Translations under genes and position numbers: made by a program
Source: Fictibacillus arsenicus
GTDB lineage: Bacteria; Bacillota; Bacilli; Bacillales; Fictibacillaceae
Assembly (NCBI RefSeq): GCF_001642935.1
Contig: NZ_CP016761.1
Coordinates: 2,418,001 to 2,482,000 of the forward strand
Reading direction: 5' to 3'
Length of the DNA: 64,000 nt
The notes under the pieces: generated by a model
Told to the model about the DNA's origin: nothing
Seen by the model: only the letters and a program-made list of their open reading frames with translations
Databases searched by the model: none
Shown here: piece by piece, positions 373 to 39,170 of the stretch
How the letters are laid out: the number at the start of each line of letters is the position of its first letter
How positions within the stretch are numbered: position 1 is the stretch's first letter

Positions 373-1170
373 TTATCCAGCTTTATGTTCGATGCGAAGT
401 TTATCAGCGACCATCGCAATGAATTCACTGTTGGTTGGTTTTGCTTTGGACATAGAAACTGTGTAGCCGAATAGAGAAGAGATGCTGTCGATATTTCCAC
501 GGCTCCAAGCAACTTCGATCGCATGGCGGATCGCGCGTTCAACACGGCTTGAAGTGGTATTAAACTTTTTAGCGATATCAGGATACAATACTTTTGTAAT
601 TGATCCTAATAGTTCAATATCGTTATATACCATAGAAATCGCTTCTCGTAAGTACATATAGCCTTTTATATGAGCAGGGACTCCAATTTCGTGGATGATG
701 CTCGTAATACTTGCGTCTAGATTACGCGGTTTATTTATAGATTGGAAACTGCTTCGATTATTTCCGGATGCACGCTGAACTGTTGTTTTTTCTGATCCGC
801 AAATTTGGCGGATCTGACTAGCTAAATTATCCATATCAAATGGCTTTAAGATAAAATAAGAAGCTCCAAGATCAACAGCTTTTTTCGTTACATCTTCTTG
901 TCCAAAAGCAGTTAGCATAATTACATTAGGCTGAGGCAGATCATCACTTGATCTGATTTTTTCTAAAACAGCTAATCCGTCTAAATGCGGCATGATAATA
1001 TCGAGTACGAGTACATCAGGATTTTTATTTTCTAAAACGGAAAGACATTCTTGACCGTTATAAGCTACCCCAATTACTTCCATGTCTTCTTGACTTGAAA
1101 GATATTCCCTCAAAAGACTAATTAGTTCACGATTATCATCAGCTAGACACACTTTAACTTTTTGCACCAT
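373..1170 (-). CDS. spo0A: Stage 0 sporulation response regulator Spo0A
   Basis: Master response regulator for entry into sporulation; phosphorylated by the phosphorelay, it activates and represses genes through 0A boxes. The 265-residue protein has an N-terminal receiver domain with the acidic pair in LADDN, the phospho-acceptor Asp in [10 protein letters not shown], the switch Thr in MLTAFG and the Lys in FILKPFD. A linker follows, then the Spo0A-specific C-terminal DNA-binding domain, including the helix region [17 protein letters not shown]. The start at 1170 is chosen because GGGGAGG lies six bases upstream and the family begins here; the frame is open seven codons further up. Two 0A-box-like sites upstream suggest autoregulation. 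Confidence 0.98.
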
Positions 1171-1316
1171 TAATTCCTCCCCATCCAACAATTTCTTGTT
1201 TTTCCCATTGTAAGATTTTCAACAATAAATCTTAAATCCCTTTATTTTGTTTTAAATTTTTTAAAATTATTTTATTTTTGTTGTAGAAAAAGCTGTTTTC
1301 TTCAATTTACTTCGAA

Positions 1317-1357
1317 TTTCGACAGTTATTAGTATGTAAACATATATATTTGTCGAA
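1317..1357. promoter_or_regulatory. Two Spo0A-box-like sites upstream of spo0A
   Basis: TTTGTCGAA at 1349-1357 (plus strand) and TGTCGAAA at 1324-1317 (minus strand) match the TGTCGAA core bound by Spo0A. They lie between the vegetative promoter and the gene, where B. subtilis has its autoregulatory 0A boxes. Sites are seen; binding is inferred. Confidence 0.55.
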
Positions 1358-1371
1358 TTTTCTTTACTACC

Positions 1372-1400
1372 ATTATACAAAATTTTCTTAAAGATGTCTA
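1372..1400 (-). promoter_or_regulatory. Sigma-A type promoter of spo0A
   Basis: On the minus strand TAGACA (1400-1395), a 17-base spacer and a perfect TATAAT (1377-1372) lie about 200 bases before the spo0A start. By position this corresponds to the vegetative promoter Pv of B. subtilis. I could not find a convincing sigma-H promoter downstream. Confidence 0.6.
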
Positions 1401-1504
1401 AACAATAAAGAAAACCTTTTCATTAGATATTATTAACAGGCTTTAAAAGCTTCTTTTCTGAAGGTTGTTGGCTACTAAGAGATTCTCAAGAGTTCTTCTT
1501 TGAA

Positions 1505-1810
1505 TAGTTAATTGGAGCAGAAGGGCATGACTCCTGCAGGACGAGCGGGACAGGTGAGACCACTCAATGTTCGCAGTACGGAAGGGCTTAAAAGCGAGCC
1601 ACTGCAGAGAAATTTAACCACTTTCAAAAGATTGTTGTTTTTGTTAATTATCTTCGTAGAAAAAGTTGATTGGAGTGCAAGGTGCGAGACTCCTGTGGGA
1701 CGAGTGTGACAGGTGAGACTCCTGAAGGCGCAAAGCGCCAGGAGGCTCACCGCACGCCCCACGGAAAGCGAGCGACCTGGAACGGAAATCAACTACTTTC
1801 AAAAATCAAC
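1505..1810 (+). repeat. Palindromic intergenic repeat, one decayed and one intact copy
   Basis: Two tandem members of a repeat family found throughout this window. The first (about 1508-1635) is decayed. The second (about 1666-1803) is intact: it starts GTTGATTGGAGTGCAAGG, ends with GGAAATCAAC, and folds into nested stems. These are GTGGG/CCCAC (1695-1699 with 1758-1762), GTGAG/CTCAC (1713-1717 with 1746-1750), CTCCT/AGGAG (1719-1723 with 1740-1744) and GGCGC/GCGCC (1727-1731 with 1735-1739). Short frames through it are by-products of the repeat. Confidence 0.85.
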
Positions 1811-1849
1811 CACTTCTAATAGCAACAAATAAAAAAACAGGCAACTGTG

Positions 1850-3136
1850 TCAGCTCGCCTGTCTTCTTTCTTCGTATATATTTATACCAGCTTCATCCAG
1901 CATCCACTCAATATGAACACCATATCCTGAAGTCGGGTCATTTACAAACACATGTGTTACTGCACCAATAATTCTTCCGTTTTGAATGATTGGACTTCCG
2001 CTCATACCTTGTACGATCCCACCAGTAATTTTTAAAAGTTCGGGATCAGTGATTTTGATTACCATACCTTTTGTTGCCGGAAACTTTTGCGGAACTGAAC
2101 TAATCACATCCACATCAAATTCCCTTACCTTTGAACCGTTGACTACGGTAAGGATTTTGGCAGGACCTTCTTTTACTTGATCAGATAATGCAATTGGCAG
2201 AGGCTGGTTCCAGCTGCCGTTAGAAATTTTATCGTTCAATCTCCCAAATATACCAAAAGGACTATTTTTTGAAATATCCCCTAAAACTCTCTGGTCATTT
2301 GAGAAGCGTGCTAATTTTTCTCCAGGATGTCCGTTCGAACCTTTTTCAATTGAAGTTACTGTTGAACCTAAGATTTCGCCATCATTTACTTTGATCGGCT
2401 TTTTGGTATCCATGTCTGAAATAACATGTCCTAAAGCTCCGTACTTAAATGAAGCTGGGTCATAAAAAGTAAGTGTACCGACTCCAGCAGCAGAGTCTCT
2501 GATATACAATCCAATTCGATATGACTGATCATTTTTATCCTGAAGGGGTTTAAGTGTTTTGTGCAGGGATTTGCCATCTCTGATGATTGTTACATCAAGC
2601 GGTTTTTGAGATTCCCCAGACTCTCTCACAAAAGGGCTGACATCGCCCATCTTTTTTATATCTTTTCCATTGATTTTGGTAATAATATCTCCTACCTGAA
2701 TATCGGCAATTTCCCCTGGAGACTGCTTACCTGAATTCGTATTTACAAGATGATGACCAACAATAAGGACTCCGAGTGTATTTAATTTTACACCTATAGA
2801 TTGTCCGCCTGGTACAACTTTTAAATCGGAAAGTACTTTTACATCCATCTTTTTAATGGGAAAACTTGCTGCTTCGAGAGTTGCCATACGATCACCACTT
2901 GTTTTGGCTTGTATCGAAACGATCTTTTCACTTTCCTTAGCTGTGGTATAAATTTCATTCTCTTCCTGCTGTATAGATGTACCTGCAGGAAGTGACTGAA
3001 TCGAATTTTGTCCTTCAAAAATTGTAACAGATTCAGGCAGTTTCACATAATCACGCACAGGAGACAAAAAACCGATTCCCACTAAACTTCCAAGGAGAAT
3101 AACGCCGATCATTCGCCGAAGTAAATCCTTAAACAT
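1850..3136 (-). CDS. spoIVB: SpoIVB serine peptidase, sigma-K checkpoint signal
   Basis: Forespore-made peptidase (family S55) secreted into the intermembrane space, where it triggers processing of pro-sigma-K by cleaving SpoIVFA. The 428-residue protein has an N-terminal membrane or signal segment (about residues 8-27), a PDZ domain around residues 110-190 ([16 protein letters not shown]), and a C-terminal peptidase domain. The domain carries the family His in ALGHVISD and the nucleophile Ser in [11 protein letters not shown]. The start ATG has GAGGAGAG spaced seven bases. It lies between spo0A and recN, as in B. subtilis. Confidence 0.96.
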
Positions 3137-8566: not shown

Positions 8567-9163
8567 TTAACGCCTTTTTTTCTCTTTCTTAGCAGGCGAT
8601 AGCAGTTTAATTCTTAATTTTTCCTCTAAAAAATATAATAAACGCCCAACCTGAAAAATAATAAAGGTTGAGTGATTGATCGCATAAGATTTTCCTAATG
8701 CTTTTCCGCCGACTGTCAGTGCAGCAACAACACTTGTAAAGATGATTGTAATCAAGTACTCGAGATTTGAGCCATTATTCTGATCCATTGAAAGTGTTAA
8801 CTCTACCACAACTGCAGCAGATGCTGTACCACTAACTATACCAGATATATCCCCAATTACGTCATTGCAAAAGTTCGCTACACGATCAGCGTTTCTTGTT
8901 ATTAGAATAGCATGTCTTGCACCTGGTACTCGTTCTGAAGCCATCGCATGAAACGGAACTTCTTGAGCCGCTGTAGATGCTACTCCGATAATATCAAAGA
9001 TAACACCGGTTAACACGATTAAAAAGACGATTCCCATCCCGATGCCCCACGAAACACCGTTAAGGAGGGCAGAAGAGACAACTGTAAAAATAGCCGCTAA
9101 CACAAGAGTGATAACGGCAATGCTTGTACTCCATTTGAGTGTTTTAGAAAAGGAATGCTTCAT
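8567..9163 (-). CDS. oapA: OLE-associated membrane protein OapA (DUF21-like)
   Basis: Membrane protein of 198 residues with two close hydrophobic segments near the N-terminus (about 12-65), two more near residues 125-165, and a basic C-terminal tail ([10 protein letters not shown]). In B. halodurans the gene right after the OLE RNA encodes OapA, which binds OLE and takes it to the membrane; the family resembles the DUF21 domain of CNNM/CorB metal transporters. Position (ispA, OLE, this gene, dxs), size and topology all fit. The start at 9163 has AAGGAG; the longer open frame reaching 9277 runs into the RNA gene and is rejected. Confidence 0.82.
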
Positions 9164-9200
9164 GCATAACTCCTTCTTTTTTGGTAACTTTATGTAATAA

Positions 9201-9819
9201 GGAGTGGTCACCTTATTAAGTAAAGACTGCGGCTTAGGTCCAGTAGGTTTTCCCAGAAGAGTACGAAATGTCGCCATATTCGCGGTTTCCCTTTACTCTC
9301 TTCTTAACGCTGTCGCCAAACGTTAGACTAGATTACCACTTAGTCCGCACTATAATCCCTAACAGGTGTCTAGATAGCAGAACAGTCTAGGAGTTTTCCT
9401 CAACAGCCCTTCGCACATTCCCTAGCCTCTTTTGCAGAGTAGATTTCATATGGCATAAAGCTCAAAATCAGCGGCCAACCGATACAGGCTTTTCACACCA
9501 TAATCCCCTCTAACACCACTCAAGGCAGGCTACGCTGCTCGCCTTTTCTTTTCCTGAAGATCAAGAAAAGCGGCAAGGCAGGTTCAAACCCCATTTCGCA
9601 GTAAGGTCTTTTGAACACAAACCGCAAATATGGGGGCCTCCGCGGAAGAAGGGTCATCGCCCACATGCCATTGTGGATCGCCCTTCAACCTTAACTCCCA
9701 GCATTAACCCAAGGCTGGGCGCCTCAAGCCAACACAAGGAACTTCATCGATGTGCCCTTTGGCGGATTTTTAGGCCCGCCTTCAGGAACGGGGGGCTGAC
9801 TAGAATACTGCACCACTCC
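9201..9819 (-). ncRNA. ole: OLE RNA (ornate large extremophilic RNA)
   Basis: About 620 bases with no plausible gene, lying between ispA and a small membrane protein gene, the known locus of OLE RNA (about 610 nt). The ends define a perfect stem: GGAGTGGT at the 5' end (9819-9812) pairs with ACCACTCC at the 3' end (9208-9201). Inside are several GC-rich hairpins: GGCGG/CCGCC near 9760-9785, CCCAGC/GCTGGG near 9690-9715, GGGCGATCC repeated in GGGCGATGACCC near 9645-9685, and a TTTTCTT/AAGAAAA stem near 9545-9570. It is richer in GC than the surroundings. Identity rests on locus, length and structure, not on an alignment. Confidence 0.85.
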
Positions 9820-9864
9820 AAAGCAAATAATATCATATCATACTTCCAATTGCTCAACAATCTC

Positions 9865-29407: not shown

Positions 29408-32400
29408 TTATAGTCCGCACTTTAATTGTGCATTACAGTTCGTACAAGTATTGCAGCCGCCGATTTCTTTTACTTTTCCCTTTCGGCAGACAGGACATGT
29501 GTTGCCTACTTCGTTACCGATTGTAACATCTGTTGAACGAAGGTCAGTAATCGTATCAAGAATGACGACTTTTTTCTTTTCTTCTTCCATTCCAAGGTCG
29601 ATCTCAGTTTGTTCAAATGTTTCTTCAGCTTTAAGAGTCAGAACTTGCGCATCACGGCTTCCATCAACATAAACAGTTCCGCCTTTTGCGCCGCCTTTAT
29701 ACAAACGCTCATAAACTTTCTGAACTTGATCAACTGTATATCCTTTTGGTGCATTTACCGTTTTGGAGATTGAACTGTCCACCCAGCGCTGAATGACACA
29801 TTGTGTATCCGCATGTGCTTCTGGGGCAAGCTCCATCGCTGCAACAAACCATTCAGGAAGTTCATTTTCATTAGCTTCCGGATTATTATCGAGATATTCT
29901 TTTACAATATCAGCTTTCACTTCAATAAACTTCCCAAGGCGTCCACTGCGGAAGTATGAGAATGAGAAGTAAGGCTCTAGCCCTGTTGAGACTCCGACCA
30001 TGGTCCCGGTGCTTCCAGTAGGAGCCACCGTTAACAAATGGGAGTTGCGAATTCCGTATTGTAAAATATCTTTTCGCACATCTTCAGGCAGCTTTTTCAT
30101 GTATCCTGTTTCAACAAAACGATTTCGAAGGTCATTAGTAGCTGTTTCTGTCTCACCTTCTAAGAATGGGAAGCTTCCCTTTTCTTTAGCAAGCTCGATC
30201 GAAGTTTTATAAGCGGTAACTGCGATCGTCTCAAAAATTTGATCCACAAGTTTATTTCCTTCTTCAGATCCATAAACCGTTTCACAGTAGATAAGCAGAT
30301 CATGAAGTCCCATTACACCTAGTCCGACACGGCGCTCGCCTAATGCCTGAACGCGGTTTGGTTCTAAGAAATATGGTGTTGCGTCAATTACGTTGTCTTG
30401 CATTCGTACGCCGACTTCAACAGTTTGTTTCAACTTCTCAAAGTCGACCTTCTTGTTTTCTTTATCAGCCATATTCCCGAGGTTTACAGCAGCTAAATTA
30501 CAAACAGAATATGGTGCAAGTGGTTGTTCCAGTTTTTTGTTATCACAGGGGCTTTTTATCCCCTGCTTCTGGAGGTTGATTTCCCTCATCCCTTTTTAAG
30601 GTACGACCAGTCAATTCTGGTCCAGCTCAGCATATCTTTTCACTATTAGAAATGGTATCTTTCATGAATTCAAGAAACTTTTTTCTGCCTTTATCTTCAC
30701 CAAATATTGATGCAGAAATAACTCTAAAGTCTTTAACTCCAAAATTTAATTGTATGTGATGCATTAAAGGGGCAAGATTTGTTTTAATCTTATTATATGG
30801 TGTATTAATTACTAATTCTTTATTTTCTTTTGCCCATTCTATAACAAAGGATTTAATCTCATTTTTTACTTGTTGACGATTGTATACGTACTGTTTTGTT
30901 GCCCTTTGTATATTCATTTTTGCAGCACATTTTTGTTTACAATGTTTACTTTTAGAAGTTTTCAGACATTTGAATTTATCGCCACATACAACACATAATC
31001 TTTCTACTCTAGGCACCTTTATTTTCCCTTTTTGTGTTAGTCCACTTTTTCTTAATCCCTCAATCATTCTTTGTTTTGAAAGACTATTTGACTCCCACAG
31101 CTTTTTAGTGTGTCTACCAATTAGTTTTTTCGTATCAGTATTATGTTTGAGAGATAAATGAGGATTTAGTTTGCCTTTGAGTGTTTTATTAATAGTTGTT
31201 TCTGGTGAATTGATCCACTCTTGGATAGTAAAGTGGAATGAACATGGCATTTGTTTCTTATAAATATTTAAAAGGTCTCTATATGATAACAATTGGCATT
31301 CTACATCAATTAGGTGTGAGACTTTATCCAATATGATTTTCGCAGAAGACAATGCTGTCTTTTGTCTTGATTTAATCTCAACATCTTTGTAAGTTCATTA
31401 TCCTCGTTATAAATAAAGAAATCCGGTTTATAAATACTCGAACCCAGATCGTACACCTCTGTCTCATAAGTCCATTTCACACTCATGTGATTTAGGTATT
31501 TGGCATAAGCGTATTCGTATGAACTTCTTAAATAATAACCAGAATAATAGCCACCATATCCTCTATTCATATAGAAACCCCAATTACCATTTATTTAAAT
31601 AGTGCTGCGGCCTCTTGGGGGAATTATATTCTGATTCCTCAGTTTCATCCCCTATGCGTTGCCCCTGACTAAACTTTTACATTTAATCTTCGGTTCGGAT
31701 TAGGATTCTCACCCTTCCCGCTTAGTTCCGCAGTTTTTAACGTGAGGCAATTTAAGCCACCTTACCACACGGATTAGTAGCTACAACTTTTTGTCCATAT
31801 GCTGTAGCGTTCGTCATGTCATTCGCATTATCGATAAAGAAGATACCAGGTTCTGCAGAGTATGTTGCACAAATGTTGATCAGGCTCCAAAGTTCACGTG
31901 CTTTAATACGTTTATAAACACGAATTCCGTAACCTTTTTCTTCCCAAACACGAACATCTCCAATTTCGTGCCACTCATTATTGTAAGCTTCCATTTCCTC
32001 AGGAGAGTATGCTTCAACACTTGGGAAACGCAGACTATAATCACCATCATTATCTACCGCTTCCATAAATTCTTTCGTGATTGTTACGGAAATATTAGCT
32101 CCTGTCAGGAACTCTGAATTATGAACACTGTAAGTACCGCCGTCGCGAAGCATCGTTTCTGCATCGCGTAAAACATCAGAGTCAAAACCGCCTGTTCCTG
32201 GAATATCTTTATAACGTAGAATTCCTTCGTACATTGCTTTTTGAGCTGGTGTTAACGGTGTGAACTTCAGCTTATCTTGTGCGACTTGTTTTATCTTCTC
32301 GTCGTTCGTATTTTCAATCAAATAACGCAAAATACGGGGATTTTGCATTTTAGAAATAATGAAGTCAATAATGTCAGGATGCCAGTCTGCAAGCATGATC

Positions 32401-33203
32401 ATTTGCGCCCCTCTGCGCGATCCACCTTGCTCAACCAGATGCGTCAGTTTCGCAATATCATCCAGCCAGGATACTGACCCTGATGATTTACCGTTTACGC
32501 CTCGTGCCAGTGCATTTTTTGGTCTAAGTGTTGATCCGTTCGTTCCAACGCCGCCGCCCCGGCTCATGATCTCCATTACTTGCTTGCGATGATCTGAGAT
32601 TCCTTCACGCGAGTCTTTTACATATGGCATAACGTAGCAGTTAAAATACGTTACGTCTGTTTCTGCTCCTGCACCGTAAAGAACTCGTCCAGCCGGTACG
32701 AAGTTCATTTCAGAAAGTTCTTTATAGAACTTCTCGAACGATTCCTGGCGCTTTTCCTCTGTCGTTTCAACAGATGCTAATCCTGTGGCATTCCTTAGCG
32801 CAATCTGCTCGTAGAATACTTCCAGCGGCTTGTCCATCACATCGAGTGAACGTGTAATAAGTCCTGTTTCTGCTTCTTCCGGTTTTTCAAGTACTGCTTT
32901 GAATTCATCCTCAACTAAAACTACTGCATTTTTATCGTCCCAGTTGACTGATTGAATATAGCCAAGTCCTCTCGCCGGAAATTTCGGATCTTCTTTGACC
33001 GTTAAAACAACAAAATCACCCGGTTTGAGTGTTTTCTTTTCTGTGTCTTTAAAACTGTATCGATCAAGCATCACCAGTCGTGAAACACCTTTATGAGTCG
33101 TTTTCATTGTGGATGATACGGGATGTACTTGTGGAAATTGTGCTATATCTTGATTAAGAGCTTCGTAGTCGATACCCTTTTTAACAGTGGCAACTGTGTC
33201 CAT
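29408..33203 (-). CDS. nrdJ: Adenosylcobalamin-dependent ribonucleotide reductase (class II), split by a group I intron
   Basis: Reduces ribonucleotides to deoxyribonucleotides with a B12-generated thiyl radical, without oxygen. Exon 1 is 33203-31764 (480 codons), exon 2 is 30529-29408 (373 codons and stop); joined, 853 residues, in frame. Joining restores NPCG-EQPLAPYSVCN, the catalytic loop with Asn, radical Cys and Glu. Exon 1 has the early Cys in VTYFNCYVMPY and the loop RGGGVGTNGS. Exon 2 has GSTGTMVGVSTGLEPYFSFS and the C-terminal redox tail with TCPVCRKGK and GCNTCTNCNAQLKCG. AAGGAGGAG precedes the ATG. No cobalamin riboswitch is seen upstream; NrdR-like boxes are. Confidence 0.95.
30530..31763 (-). 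ncRNA. Group I self-splicing intron in nrdJ
   Basis: The 1234-nt insert interrupts nrdJ between the Gly and Glu codons of NPCGE. At the 5' splice site the exon end CGTGTGGT pairs with intron GCCTCACG (7 of 8, with a U-G pair at the cut) as a P1 helix; the intron ends in G (CTG then GAACAA), as group I introns do. CAGCA (31607-31603) pairs with TGCTG (30632-30628) as P7, the latter inside AAGATATGCTGAG, close to the usual group I S element. Three hairpins near the 3' end (GACCAG/CTGGTC, GAGG/CCTC, CAGGGG/CCCCTG) fit P9 stems. The nuclease ORF lies in the region of P8. Confidence 0.88.
30627..31570 (-). pseudogene. Intron-encoded homing endonuclease, frameshifted
   Basis: Two overlapping frames (31570-31310 and 31352-30627) belong to one broken gene. 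The first has RSSYEYAYAKYL and YKPDFFIYNEDNELTKM; shifting frame near 31382-31388 continues as VEIKSRQKTALSSAKIIL. Together this gives the E, PD and E-x-K pattern of PD-(D/E)XK nucleases, also used by I-Ssp6803I- and I-Bth0305I-type homing enzymes. The second part carries a Cys cluster (CVVCGDKFKC, then HCKQKC) that may bind zinc. The stop codon lies inside the P7 strand of the intron. One indel, or a sequencing error, separates the halves. Confidence 0.75.
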
Positions 33204-34972: not shown

Positions 34973-36436
34973 TTAAGCTTGTTTACTGTATTTTAGAATC
35001 GGTTTTCTCGCTGCAGTTGCTTCATCCAGTCGTTTTACCACAGTTGTATGAGGCGCTTCTTGCACCAATTCTGGAGTTTCTTCAGCTTCTTTTGCGATTT
35101 GAATCATCTTTTCGATGAATTCATCAAGTGTTTCTTTGGATTCTGTTTCAGTCGGCTCAATCATAATCGCCTCTTCTACGCTAAGCGGGAAGTAGATCGT
35201 TGGCGGGTGATAGCCAAAGTCGAGCAAACGTTTTGCAATATCAAGAGTTCTTACCCCAAGTTTCTTCTGGCGTCGTCCAGACAATACAAACTCATGCTTA
35301 CAGTGCTGTGTAAAAGGAAGGTCGAAGTGCGGCTCTAATCGGCGCATCATATAGTTTGCGTTCAGAACAGCATTCTCTGAAACTTGATGCAGACCATCTG
35401 GACCCATTGTCATGATGTACGTGAATGCACGAACATTGATTCCAAAGTTTCCGTAAAATGGCTTCACTCGTCCGATAGATTGCGGTCTGTTGTATTCAAA
35501 CTTATATACATCGTCCTCTTTTACAAGTACTGGTTTCGGCAAGAACGGGATAAGATCCGCTTTTACACCTACAGGGCCAGATCCAGGACCTCCGCCGCCA
35601 TGGGGACCAGTAAATGTTTTATGCAAGTTAAGGTGAACAACATCAAAGCCCATATCTCCAGGTCTTGCAAAGCCTAGGATAGCATTTGCGTTTGCTCCGT
35701 CATAATAGAGCTTTCCGCCAGCTTCGTGAATGATTTTCGCCATTTCTAAAATATGCTCTTCAAAAAGACCAAGAGTGTTTGGATTCGTTAGCATCAATGC
35801 TGCTACATCTTGGTCCACAACACGTTTCAAATCTTCTAAGTCAACTAGACCGCGTTCATCTGATTTAACTGTTATCGATTCAAATCCAGCAACTGTTGCA
35901 GAAGCAGGATTAGTTCCGTGAGCTGAGTCAGGTACGATTACCTTTGTTCGGTTAAAGTCACCATTTGCTTCGTGATAAGCACGAATCATCATAAGCCCTG
36001 TCCACTCACCGTGAGCGCCAGCTGCCGGCTGCAATGTTACTTCATCCATACCCGTAATTTCGGCTAATGAAGTTTGGAGACGGTACATCATTTCCATTGC
36101 ACCTTGAACAGTTTCTTCGTCTTGAAGCGGGTGAATATGAGCAAATCCAGGGAAACGTGCAACGTCTTCGTTAATTTTAGGGTTGTATTTCATCGTACAA
36201 GATCCGAGTGGATAAAAACCAGAATCTACACCATGGTTACGGTTTGATAACGCCGTGTAGTGACGGACGATCTGCAGTTCAGAAACCTCAGGCAGTTCAG
36301 GTTCTTCTGTACGCAAATAATCGGAAGGAATAATGGATTCTACATTTACTTCTGGTACATCAAGTTCCGGAATACTATAGCCAACTCGGCCCGGCTTTGA
36401 TAATTCAAAAATTAGTGACTGATGTTCTGTACGCAT
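34973..36436 (-). CDS. gcvPB: Glycine dehydrogenase (decarboxylating) subunit 2
   Basis: C-terminal half of the two-piece P protein: decarboxylates glycine with pyridoxal phosphate and passes aminomethyl to lipoyl-GcvH. 487 residues; PLP Lys in [17 protein letters not shown]; also [12 protein letters not shown] and [18 protein letters not shown] precedes the ATG, which lies inside the end of gcvPA (25-base overlap). Confidence 0.97.
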
Positions 36437-38948: not shown

Positions 38949-38993
38949 ACAAAAAAAGGACAGAGAGACCCCTTAAAAAGGGATCCTCTGTCC
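38949..38993 (-). terminator. Intrinsic terminator of the glycine riboswitch
   Basis: Minus strand GGACAGAG pairs with CTCTGTCC around an inner AAGGG/CCCTT-type stem, then TTTTTTT. The upstream arm (38993-38986) is also the closing strand of the second aptamer, so glycine binding would compete with the terminator. Confidence 0.85.
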
Positions 38994-39152
38994 TGCAACC
39001 GGTAAGTTTCTCAATCCTGAGTTTCTTCGTTGGTGGCTTTCATCTATTTAAAAAGCTCTCTCCAGAGATGCGTCTAGCAAGAGTCTTTTTGCCTGAGAGT
39101 TTCACAATTGTTTGCTCCTTCGGCGCCGCTAAAGCAGTCTCTCCTCTTACTT
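38986..39152 (-). promoter_or_regulatory. Tandem glycine riboswitch controlling gcvT-gcvPA-gcvPB
   Basis: The first aptamer is canonical: AGGAGAGACTGC, GCGGCGCCGAAGGAGCAAA, GAAACTCTCAGGCAAAAAGA (39150 down to about 39080). The second starts CTCTGGAGAGAGC and has GCCACCAACGAAG. The expected closing AAACTCTCAGG is replaced by AAACTTACCGG after a short CTCA/TGAG hairpin. Glycine riboswitches turn gcv operons on when glycine is high; the terminator downstream fits that. Confidence 0.9.
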
Positions 39153-39170
39153 TCATTCGCGAGTATGTTA

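Follow-up and report, generated by a model that had tools for sequence, protein, structure and literature searches.

A group I intron splits the NPCGE active-site motif at its Gly/Glu boundary in a class II ribonucleotide reductase gene of Fictibacillus

Group I introns are well represented in ribonucleotide reductase (RNR) genes. The accessible text on the database RNRdb counts more than 100 of them (PMC2795772), and this and other partly available papers place such introns in nrdE, nrdF, nrdB and RIR genes of Bacillus prophages, phages and cyanobacteria (PMC2795772, PMC3653736, PMC1995217). Introns in nrdE, recA and flagellin genes of Bacillus are described in the available part of a further paper (PMC3984707). 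Most group I introns sit at conserved sites according to PMC2814812, and PMC11878797 describes phage introns to which current subgroups are poorly suited. The element described below is of the same kind and lies in the same enzyme family as the RNR introns of Bacillus prophages, phages and cyanobacteria, several of which carry homing ORFs according to those sources; it differs from the ones they cover in lying in a class II gene, nrdJ, on a bacterial chromosome and at the junction NPCG/E. An nrdJ intron at NPCG/E is not described in the titles and abstract openings covered, which do not extend to key older papers on RNR introns, and NPCGE was not found in the RNR and intein literature among the matches listed. 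We make no claim that the site is unreported.

The interrupted nrdJ gene and the fold of its insert

The window, a 64-kb stretch of DNA, contains an nrdJ gene for class II RNR that is interrupted in phase 0 by 1234 nt at the junction of Gly480 and Glu481 (NPCG/E). We take the Cys of NPCGE to be the radical site and the Glu to be catalytic. The parts of the gene are:

31764-33203, minus strand: nrdJ exon 1, 480 codons, with TNPCG at its 3' end; matched by NF005991 and Pfam RNR domains
30530-31763, minus strand: group I intron, recognised by model R2 on both halves, by covariation and by empty sites in relatives
29408-30529, minus strand: nrdJ exon 2, 373 codons, opening with EQPLAPYS; matched by NF005991

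The length of each exon is divisible by three. NF005991, the NCBIfam model for vitamin B12-dependent RNR, aligns to exon 1 over model positions 7-481 with 910.6 bits, which exceeds the cut-off of 854 bits without help from exon 2, and continues on exon 2 at 481-858 with 732.9 bits, so that nothing is lost at the exon junction. The exon 2 protein is 89-99% identical to those of 17 congeners. Among named genomes, the closest exon 2 sequences come from Fictibacillus, and the window's genome forms a single 4.06-Mb contig. The initial annotation had assigned the insert to group I and set it at the Gly/Glu boundary of NPCGE, and this assignment is borne out by the fold, its covariation, matches to a covariance model and empty alleles in relatives. 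The intron is real and of a known kind, though unrecognised by the standard RNA library. The core consists of the following elements:

31728-31733, minus strand: P3 5' strand CTGCGG, paired with 31605-31610; C-G becomes U-A in 3 of 12 rows of alignment A1, and 6 of 6 pairs are doubly changed on alignment A2
31696-31720, minus strand: P4 and P5; 3 of 3 P5 pairs doubly changed on A1; P4 pairs doubly changed 0 on A1 and 4 of 4 on A2
31666-31689, minus strand: P6 extension hairpin (A1, A2)
31653-31657, minus strand: P7 5' strand GCATA, the guanosine-binding helix, preceded by a bulged C; no variation on A1
31618-31652, minus strand: hairpins P7.1 and P7.2; 5 of 5 and 2 of 3 pairs, respectively, doubly changed on A1
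31605-31610, minus strand: P3 3' strand CCGCAG (covariation on A1)
31599-31604, minus strand: P8 5' strand (A1)
30641-30647, minus strand: P8 3' strand (A1)
30630-30634, minus strand: P7 3' strand TATGC (A2)
30545-30566, minus strand: last hairpin upstream of the 3' splice site, similar to P9.1, with double changes in 5 of 7 pairs on A1

Alignment A1 holds the 11 ORF-less NPCG/E introns and the core of the window's intron with its ORF cut out (n = 12). The fold scored on it comprises P3, P4, P5, the P6 hairpin, P7, P7.1, P7.2, P8, P9 and the last hairpin. Standard pairs fill 96.4% of 643 cells, and changes on both sides occur in 30 of 54 pairs. The covariation score is 0.488, compared with 0.165 for shuffled alignments, none of 500 of which scored as high, and with 0.058-0.090 when the fold was slid along the alignment.

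A covariance model, R1, was built without the P7 pairs and then used to find related introns elsewhere. Alignment A2, consisting of 22 R1 matches from 20 chosen loci in other genes, has 96.2% of its cells paired, a figure in which cells are not independent events because its rows include intron halves and close relatives, and in which helices other than P7 lean to the model because A2 was fitted to R1. P7 is exempt from the latter bias. With 19 of the 22 rows scorable per pair, all 114 P7 cells pair and 4 of 6 pairs are doubly changed, the spellings being GCATA/TATGC, GCGTA/TACGC, GACTA/TAGTC and GGTCA/TGACC. Group I introns bind guanosine at a G-C pair of P7, a helix that also has a bulge, and this pair is G-C in 19 of 19 scorable rows. 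The bulge is C with an outer A-U pair in 15 rows and A with an outer G-C pair in 4, the two features changing together. A pairing CAGCAT/ATGCTG, picked by eye as P7, was dropped: changes there follow the P3 partner, and it is GCATA/TATGC that covaries on A2.

The P3/P7 pseudoknot characteristic of group I is accompanied by P4, P5, P6 and P8. Hairpins P7.1 and P7.2 between P7 and P3 are a mark of subgroup IA and are present here; we leave the assignment at IA, above the level of IA1-IA3. Both Fictibacillus introns, that of the window (approximately 30587-30622, minus strand) and that of locus L011, have about 36 nt extra in the P9 region, a stretch that the other ORF-less introns do not have.

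Model R2 was built from 9 nrdJ introns of other genera and 2 recA introns, the window's genus being excluded. At E ≤ 1 it matches just two places in the 64-kb window, the two intron halves flanking the ORF, in order: 31504-31763 (165 bits, E 3e-48) and 30532-30681 (51 bits, E 5e-14). The first match also lays ORF sequence on the 3' part of the model, without real pairing there. An Rfam scan of the insert, at gathering scores and at E ≤ 5, gave no match to the group I family RF00028; its one match of any kind, to SNORD78 with E 5, we regard as chance.

In the light of the family models, we count the Rfam miss as a false negative. None of the 11 ORF-less NPCG/E introns was found by RF00028 at E ≤ 1, and in four of these loci it matched elsewhere, above the gathering score in L017 and L019 and below it in L021 and L015. 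It likewise found 0 of the 9 R1-type introns in phage loci, all of which have R1 matches, and in phage loci L009 and L010 it matched an adjacent intron. The idea that RF00028 is blind to the whole R1-type group had to be rejected, as it found 2 R1-type introns in 8 loci of other genes, one in a flagellin gene (L124, 54 bits) and one in a tail sheath gene (L136, 93 bits). Because these two carry GGTCA and GACTA in P7, and none with GCATA or GCGTA was detected, the blind spot is the GCATA/GCGTA type and not every R1 match. The initial annotation had proposed a group I covariance model as a check, with failure to fold counting against an intron. R2 gives a positive answer on both halves and RF00028 a negative one; since the latter misses the intron and its 11 ORF-less relatives alike, the test would misfire with RF00028.

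Two further RNA elements lie elsewhere in the window. An OLE RNA at 9188-9832, minus strand (504 bits, E 5e-145), is overlapped at its 3' end by a 236-aa ORF (8567-9277, minus strand), in what we take to be the usual place of the OLE-associated protein. A glycine-GGAnGA riboswitch aptamer at 38984-39160, minus strand, scores 110.4 bits against a cut-off of 110, and a GcvPB-like ORF, named by eye, lies downstream on the same strand (34973-36436).

Splice sites, codon choice and the ORF in loop P8

Three elements mark the ends of the intron:

31752-31754, minus strand: in-frame stop TAA, the fourth intron codon; each of the 17 introns has a stop at codon 3 or 4
31741-31748, minus strand: internal guide sequence GCCTCACG; its pairing with CCGTGTGGT, where exon 1 ends, forms P1, which has one U-U mismatch and a U.G at the splice site
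30530, minus strand: intron terminal G, present in 17 of 17 introns

That P1, P7 and a 3' terminal G are visible in the sequence had been noted initially and stands. In isolation P1 folds with U.G at the splice site, a fold that is unremarkable by itself (z -1.86, with 10 of 200 shuffles as good), and the last exon base is T (U) in all 17 carriers. Exon and guide covary: exon CCG meets guide CAC in 15 introns and CCA meets CAT in 2, the two being exactly those of L013 and L018. P10 measures 4 bp in 10 introns and 3 bp in 5; in the remaining 2, of which the window's is one, it is 2 bp long. The in-frame stops are TAG in 9 introns, TGA in 5 and TAA in 3. Most group I introns carry such a stop, which keeps ribosomes out, according to the available part of a further paper (PMC3073962).

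If the intron works as its parts suggest, splicing would proceed by two guanosine-initiated transesterifications, for which P1 would offer the U.G at the end of NPCG, P7 would bind the guanosine and the terminal G would mark the 3' splice site. The stop just inside the intron would bar ribosomes from the ribozyme core. Without splicing, the TAA would end the protein after NPCG-KVA, and NrdJ therefore needs splicing; the initial statement that the unspliced product is dead is supported. The same genome encodes an RNR large subunit, as a 741-aa uninterrupted frame, beside a small subunit; by this pairing in the sequence the second reductase is class I, and NrdD has no match in the genome. Since an uninterrupted class I reductase is present, dNTP supply need not depend on nrdJ splicing. 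The suggestion that the intron links dNTP supply to splicing thus describes something possible and not required, the more so as 118 of 136 nrdJ genomes do without it. Nor is the site, as had been supposed, the most constant DNA in the gene: among the 118 empty alleles the nine preceding bases have 23 spellings, and the motif is constant as protein only. Most of the functional claims of the initial annotation fail in this way. Gly480 is spelled GGT in all 17 carriers, compared with 29 of the 118 alleles that are empty (Fisher p 1e-9, kinship ignored).

Inside the intron, and absent from the initial annotation, is a broken endonuclease-like ORF:

31310-31570, minus strand: piece 1, 86 aa, resembling the start of the intact ORFs of L012 and L020
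30627-31352, minus strand: piece 2, in another frame, its 3' end crossing P8, J8/7 and P7

Overlap of this sort between an ORF and the intron core is known as "core creep", in the available part of PMC3073962. A related ORF occupies the P8 loop in 5 of the 17 introns; L012 and L020 have it intact (311 and 310 aa, respectively), and in the window, L013 and L014 it is split over two frames. The two intact proteins have 185 of 310 residues in common, and because their genes differ at 89 first, 67 second and 176 third codon positions, this comparison suggests purifying selection on the ORF. At the same nrdJ site, the intron of L025 (genome G032) carries an HNH ORF (Pfam HNH, E 2e-8) in loop P5 and not in P8. 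The inserts without an ORF, 11 of 17, measure 245-290 nt. In G016, of the window's genus, positions 1-170 and 1117-1234 of the window's intron adjoin and the ORF is absent.

From a PDFF...VEIK motif read by eye, the ORF may be PD-(D/E)XK-like. Profile support is weak: Pfam Phage_endo_I reaches E 0.025, which does not pass the cut-off, and PHROG endonuclease families reach E 0.0016-0.042, the best PHROG (E 1.9e-9) being one of no known function. The intact ORFs matched no nuclease family significantly in Pfam or NCBIfam, and nothing significantly by solved structure. Of what would be expected of an actively homing intron, the exact site does occur empty in other genomes, and the window's ORF is not intact. 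The lineage would spread by homing by means of this PD-(D/E)XK-like ORF in loop P8, and the gain-decay-loss cycle of homing introns fits the data, as the ORF is intact in two introns, frameshifted in three including the window's, and gone in G016.

Distribution and horizontal spread

A DNA search covered 149 genomes, the window's own included. The insert lies at the exact junction in 16 relatives, 17 genomes with the window, and three further matching genomes matched elsewhere. Exon 2 protein matches (E ≤ 1e-60) were obtained in 136 of the 149, own included, and among these genomes with nrdJ the group I intron at NPCG/E is present in 17, from 10 families, including 2 of 18 in the window's genus. 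The site is unbroken in 118 of the 136, which are intronless alleles of the kind that the initial annotation proposed to look for. One of the empty-site genomes is a congener with 94.6% identical DNA (L062).

The model R1 matches 23 of the 149 genomes, the 17 carriers and 6 with matches in other genes only. Pfam identifies the host genes of R1-type introns as recA (L121, L128), flagellin (L134, L125) and tail sheath (L136), and the rest were named by eye. Under strict filters, at least 11 of 398 genomes spread over the phylum, the window's included, have an R1 match.

Other elements interrupt nrdJ as well. Genome G127 (L146, approximately 496-3107) has a group II intron two codons downstream (NPCGEQ/P), with a 619-aa frame containing Pfam RT, maturase and HNH domains and an RF00029 match of 64.7 bits that ends at the 3' exon; its genus also holds G093, a carrier of the group I intron. 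Further interruptions lie near codons 263-266 (GGSRRGA) and at codons 652/653 (PTGS), the latter in 10 genomes by a split exon 2 match; the loci are L147-L149, L153 and L154, and L150-L153, L155 and L156, respectively. RF00028 matches occur at these other interruptions in three NPCG/E carriers (L017, L019, L021). In G065 (L250) the nrdJ exon matches break at least three times, near codons 265, 460 (with an RT frame inside) and 480, and this genome also has R1 matches in recA and flagellin.

The intron and exon trees conflict. Within genus g3, exon identity among L014, L019 and L025 is 94-95%; the introns of L019 and L025 are 95% alike, and that of L014 is 82-83% like both. The L014 intron is instead 94% like that of L012, whereas the exons of L014 and L012 are 80% alike. 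In the intron tree, the partners of L012 and L014 come from two other families (94/99), and L023, from a third family, joins L019 and L025 (94/93); neither of these conflicting branches is starred. Locus L013 contributed to the intron tree and not to the exon tree, since its site has a second insert some 75 nt upstream; its exon identities carry no meaning and were set aside. Forcing the exons into the intron groupings, which were picked after viewing the trees, was rejected (AU p 0.001, 1e-4 and 2e-5), and holding the g3 introns as one clade was not rejected by the intron data alone (AU p 0.09). The conflict between the trees gives moderate support to exchange of introns and horizontal spread, with a direction of transfer that we would only infer. 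In the window's genus, the introns of L001 and L011 are 91% alike and the exons 83%, and slower change of the intron core could be an alternative cause of this difference. No tract of co-conversion was seen, in that exon identity to the nearest congener has no step at the junction.

Competing readings and relation to known introns

We are highly confident in reading the insert as a group I intron that comes from a mobile lineage, has probably lost its own mobility here and would splice itself from the nrdJ mRNA. One could suppose that it is dead for splicing and that nrdJ is a pseudogene, tolerated as class I covers the dNTP supply. The second RNR, the broken intron ORF and the weak P10 would suit this; both exons are open and covered by NF005991 over model positions 7-858, exon 2 keeps its high identity to 17 congeners, and the core helices of the window's own copy pair, and we consider such a pseudogene very improbable. 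Replacement of the group I assignment by a group II intron or an intein deserves almost no credence. The group II intron of G127, two codons downstream, is what brings it to mind, yet the window's insert has no RT ORF and no RF00029 match at E ≤ 5, an intein would be cut short by the stop at codon 4, and neither accounts for a P3/P7 pseudoknot with covariation.

The intron might also be kept as a switch, its splicing responding to guanosine, growth state or B12 and so setting the ratio of class II to class I enzyme. Such a role would be in keeping with the position in active-site codons of a metabolic gene, the interruptions at two other nrdJ motifs in other genomes and the extra P9-region stretch in the two Fictibacillus introns, and the accessible part of PMC3073962 considers how translation and splicing may be coupled in group I introns. 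Its absence from 118 of 136 nrdJ genes weighs against a switch, and patchy presence and tree conflict suit a parasite better; we think regulation of this kind very improbable. A self-splicing intron of a mobile lineage accordingly remains our reading of the locus.

More speculatively, the NPCG/E introns may be a site-specific lineage unseen by Rfam that homed between Bacillales families and dictates synonymous codons of an active site; nrdJ may host several intron lineages at once, with class I as the backup that makes such a load tolerable. We put this wider proposal forward tentatively and with more doubt than belief. Under it, carriers must spell NPCG so as to pair with the guide, and a readable codon footprint would therefore result; if this is true, the footprint of the parasite could outlive the intron. 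At a single active-site junction, 17 genomes from 10 families share one intron lineage, and alleles that are empty, lack the ORF, hold it intact or hold it broken are all available, so that the homing cycle and the price in codon choice of an active-site intron become directly testable in harmless bacteria. Genes for NrdJ may also be mis-annotated as split or as pseudogenes.

Phage introns are related to the nrdJ intron and differ from it in host genes and ORFs. A blastn search matched ten phage records, in 8 of them at the 5' core (101-152 nt, 72-79% identity) and in 2 at the 3' end, and R1 matches are found in 9 of 9 phage loci examined; examples are gyrase A of phiR1-37 and the major tail protein of vB-SscS-F1, both annotated in two pieces. 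A tblastn search of 50,697 phage records with the intact endonuclease-like protein of L012 gave nothing at E ≤ 1e-3. The recA and flagellin introns of Bacillus relatives lie in other host genes and are matched by the nrdJ model R1, with the P7.1 pairs conserved; the P7 of the flagellin introns is GGTCA/TGACC, and that of the recA introns is GCATA/TATGC or GCGTA/TACGC. By alignment, the NPCG/E intron has the same layout of paired elements as the Rfam group I family itself (RF00028, Intron_gpI).
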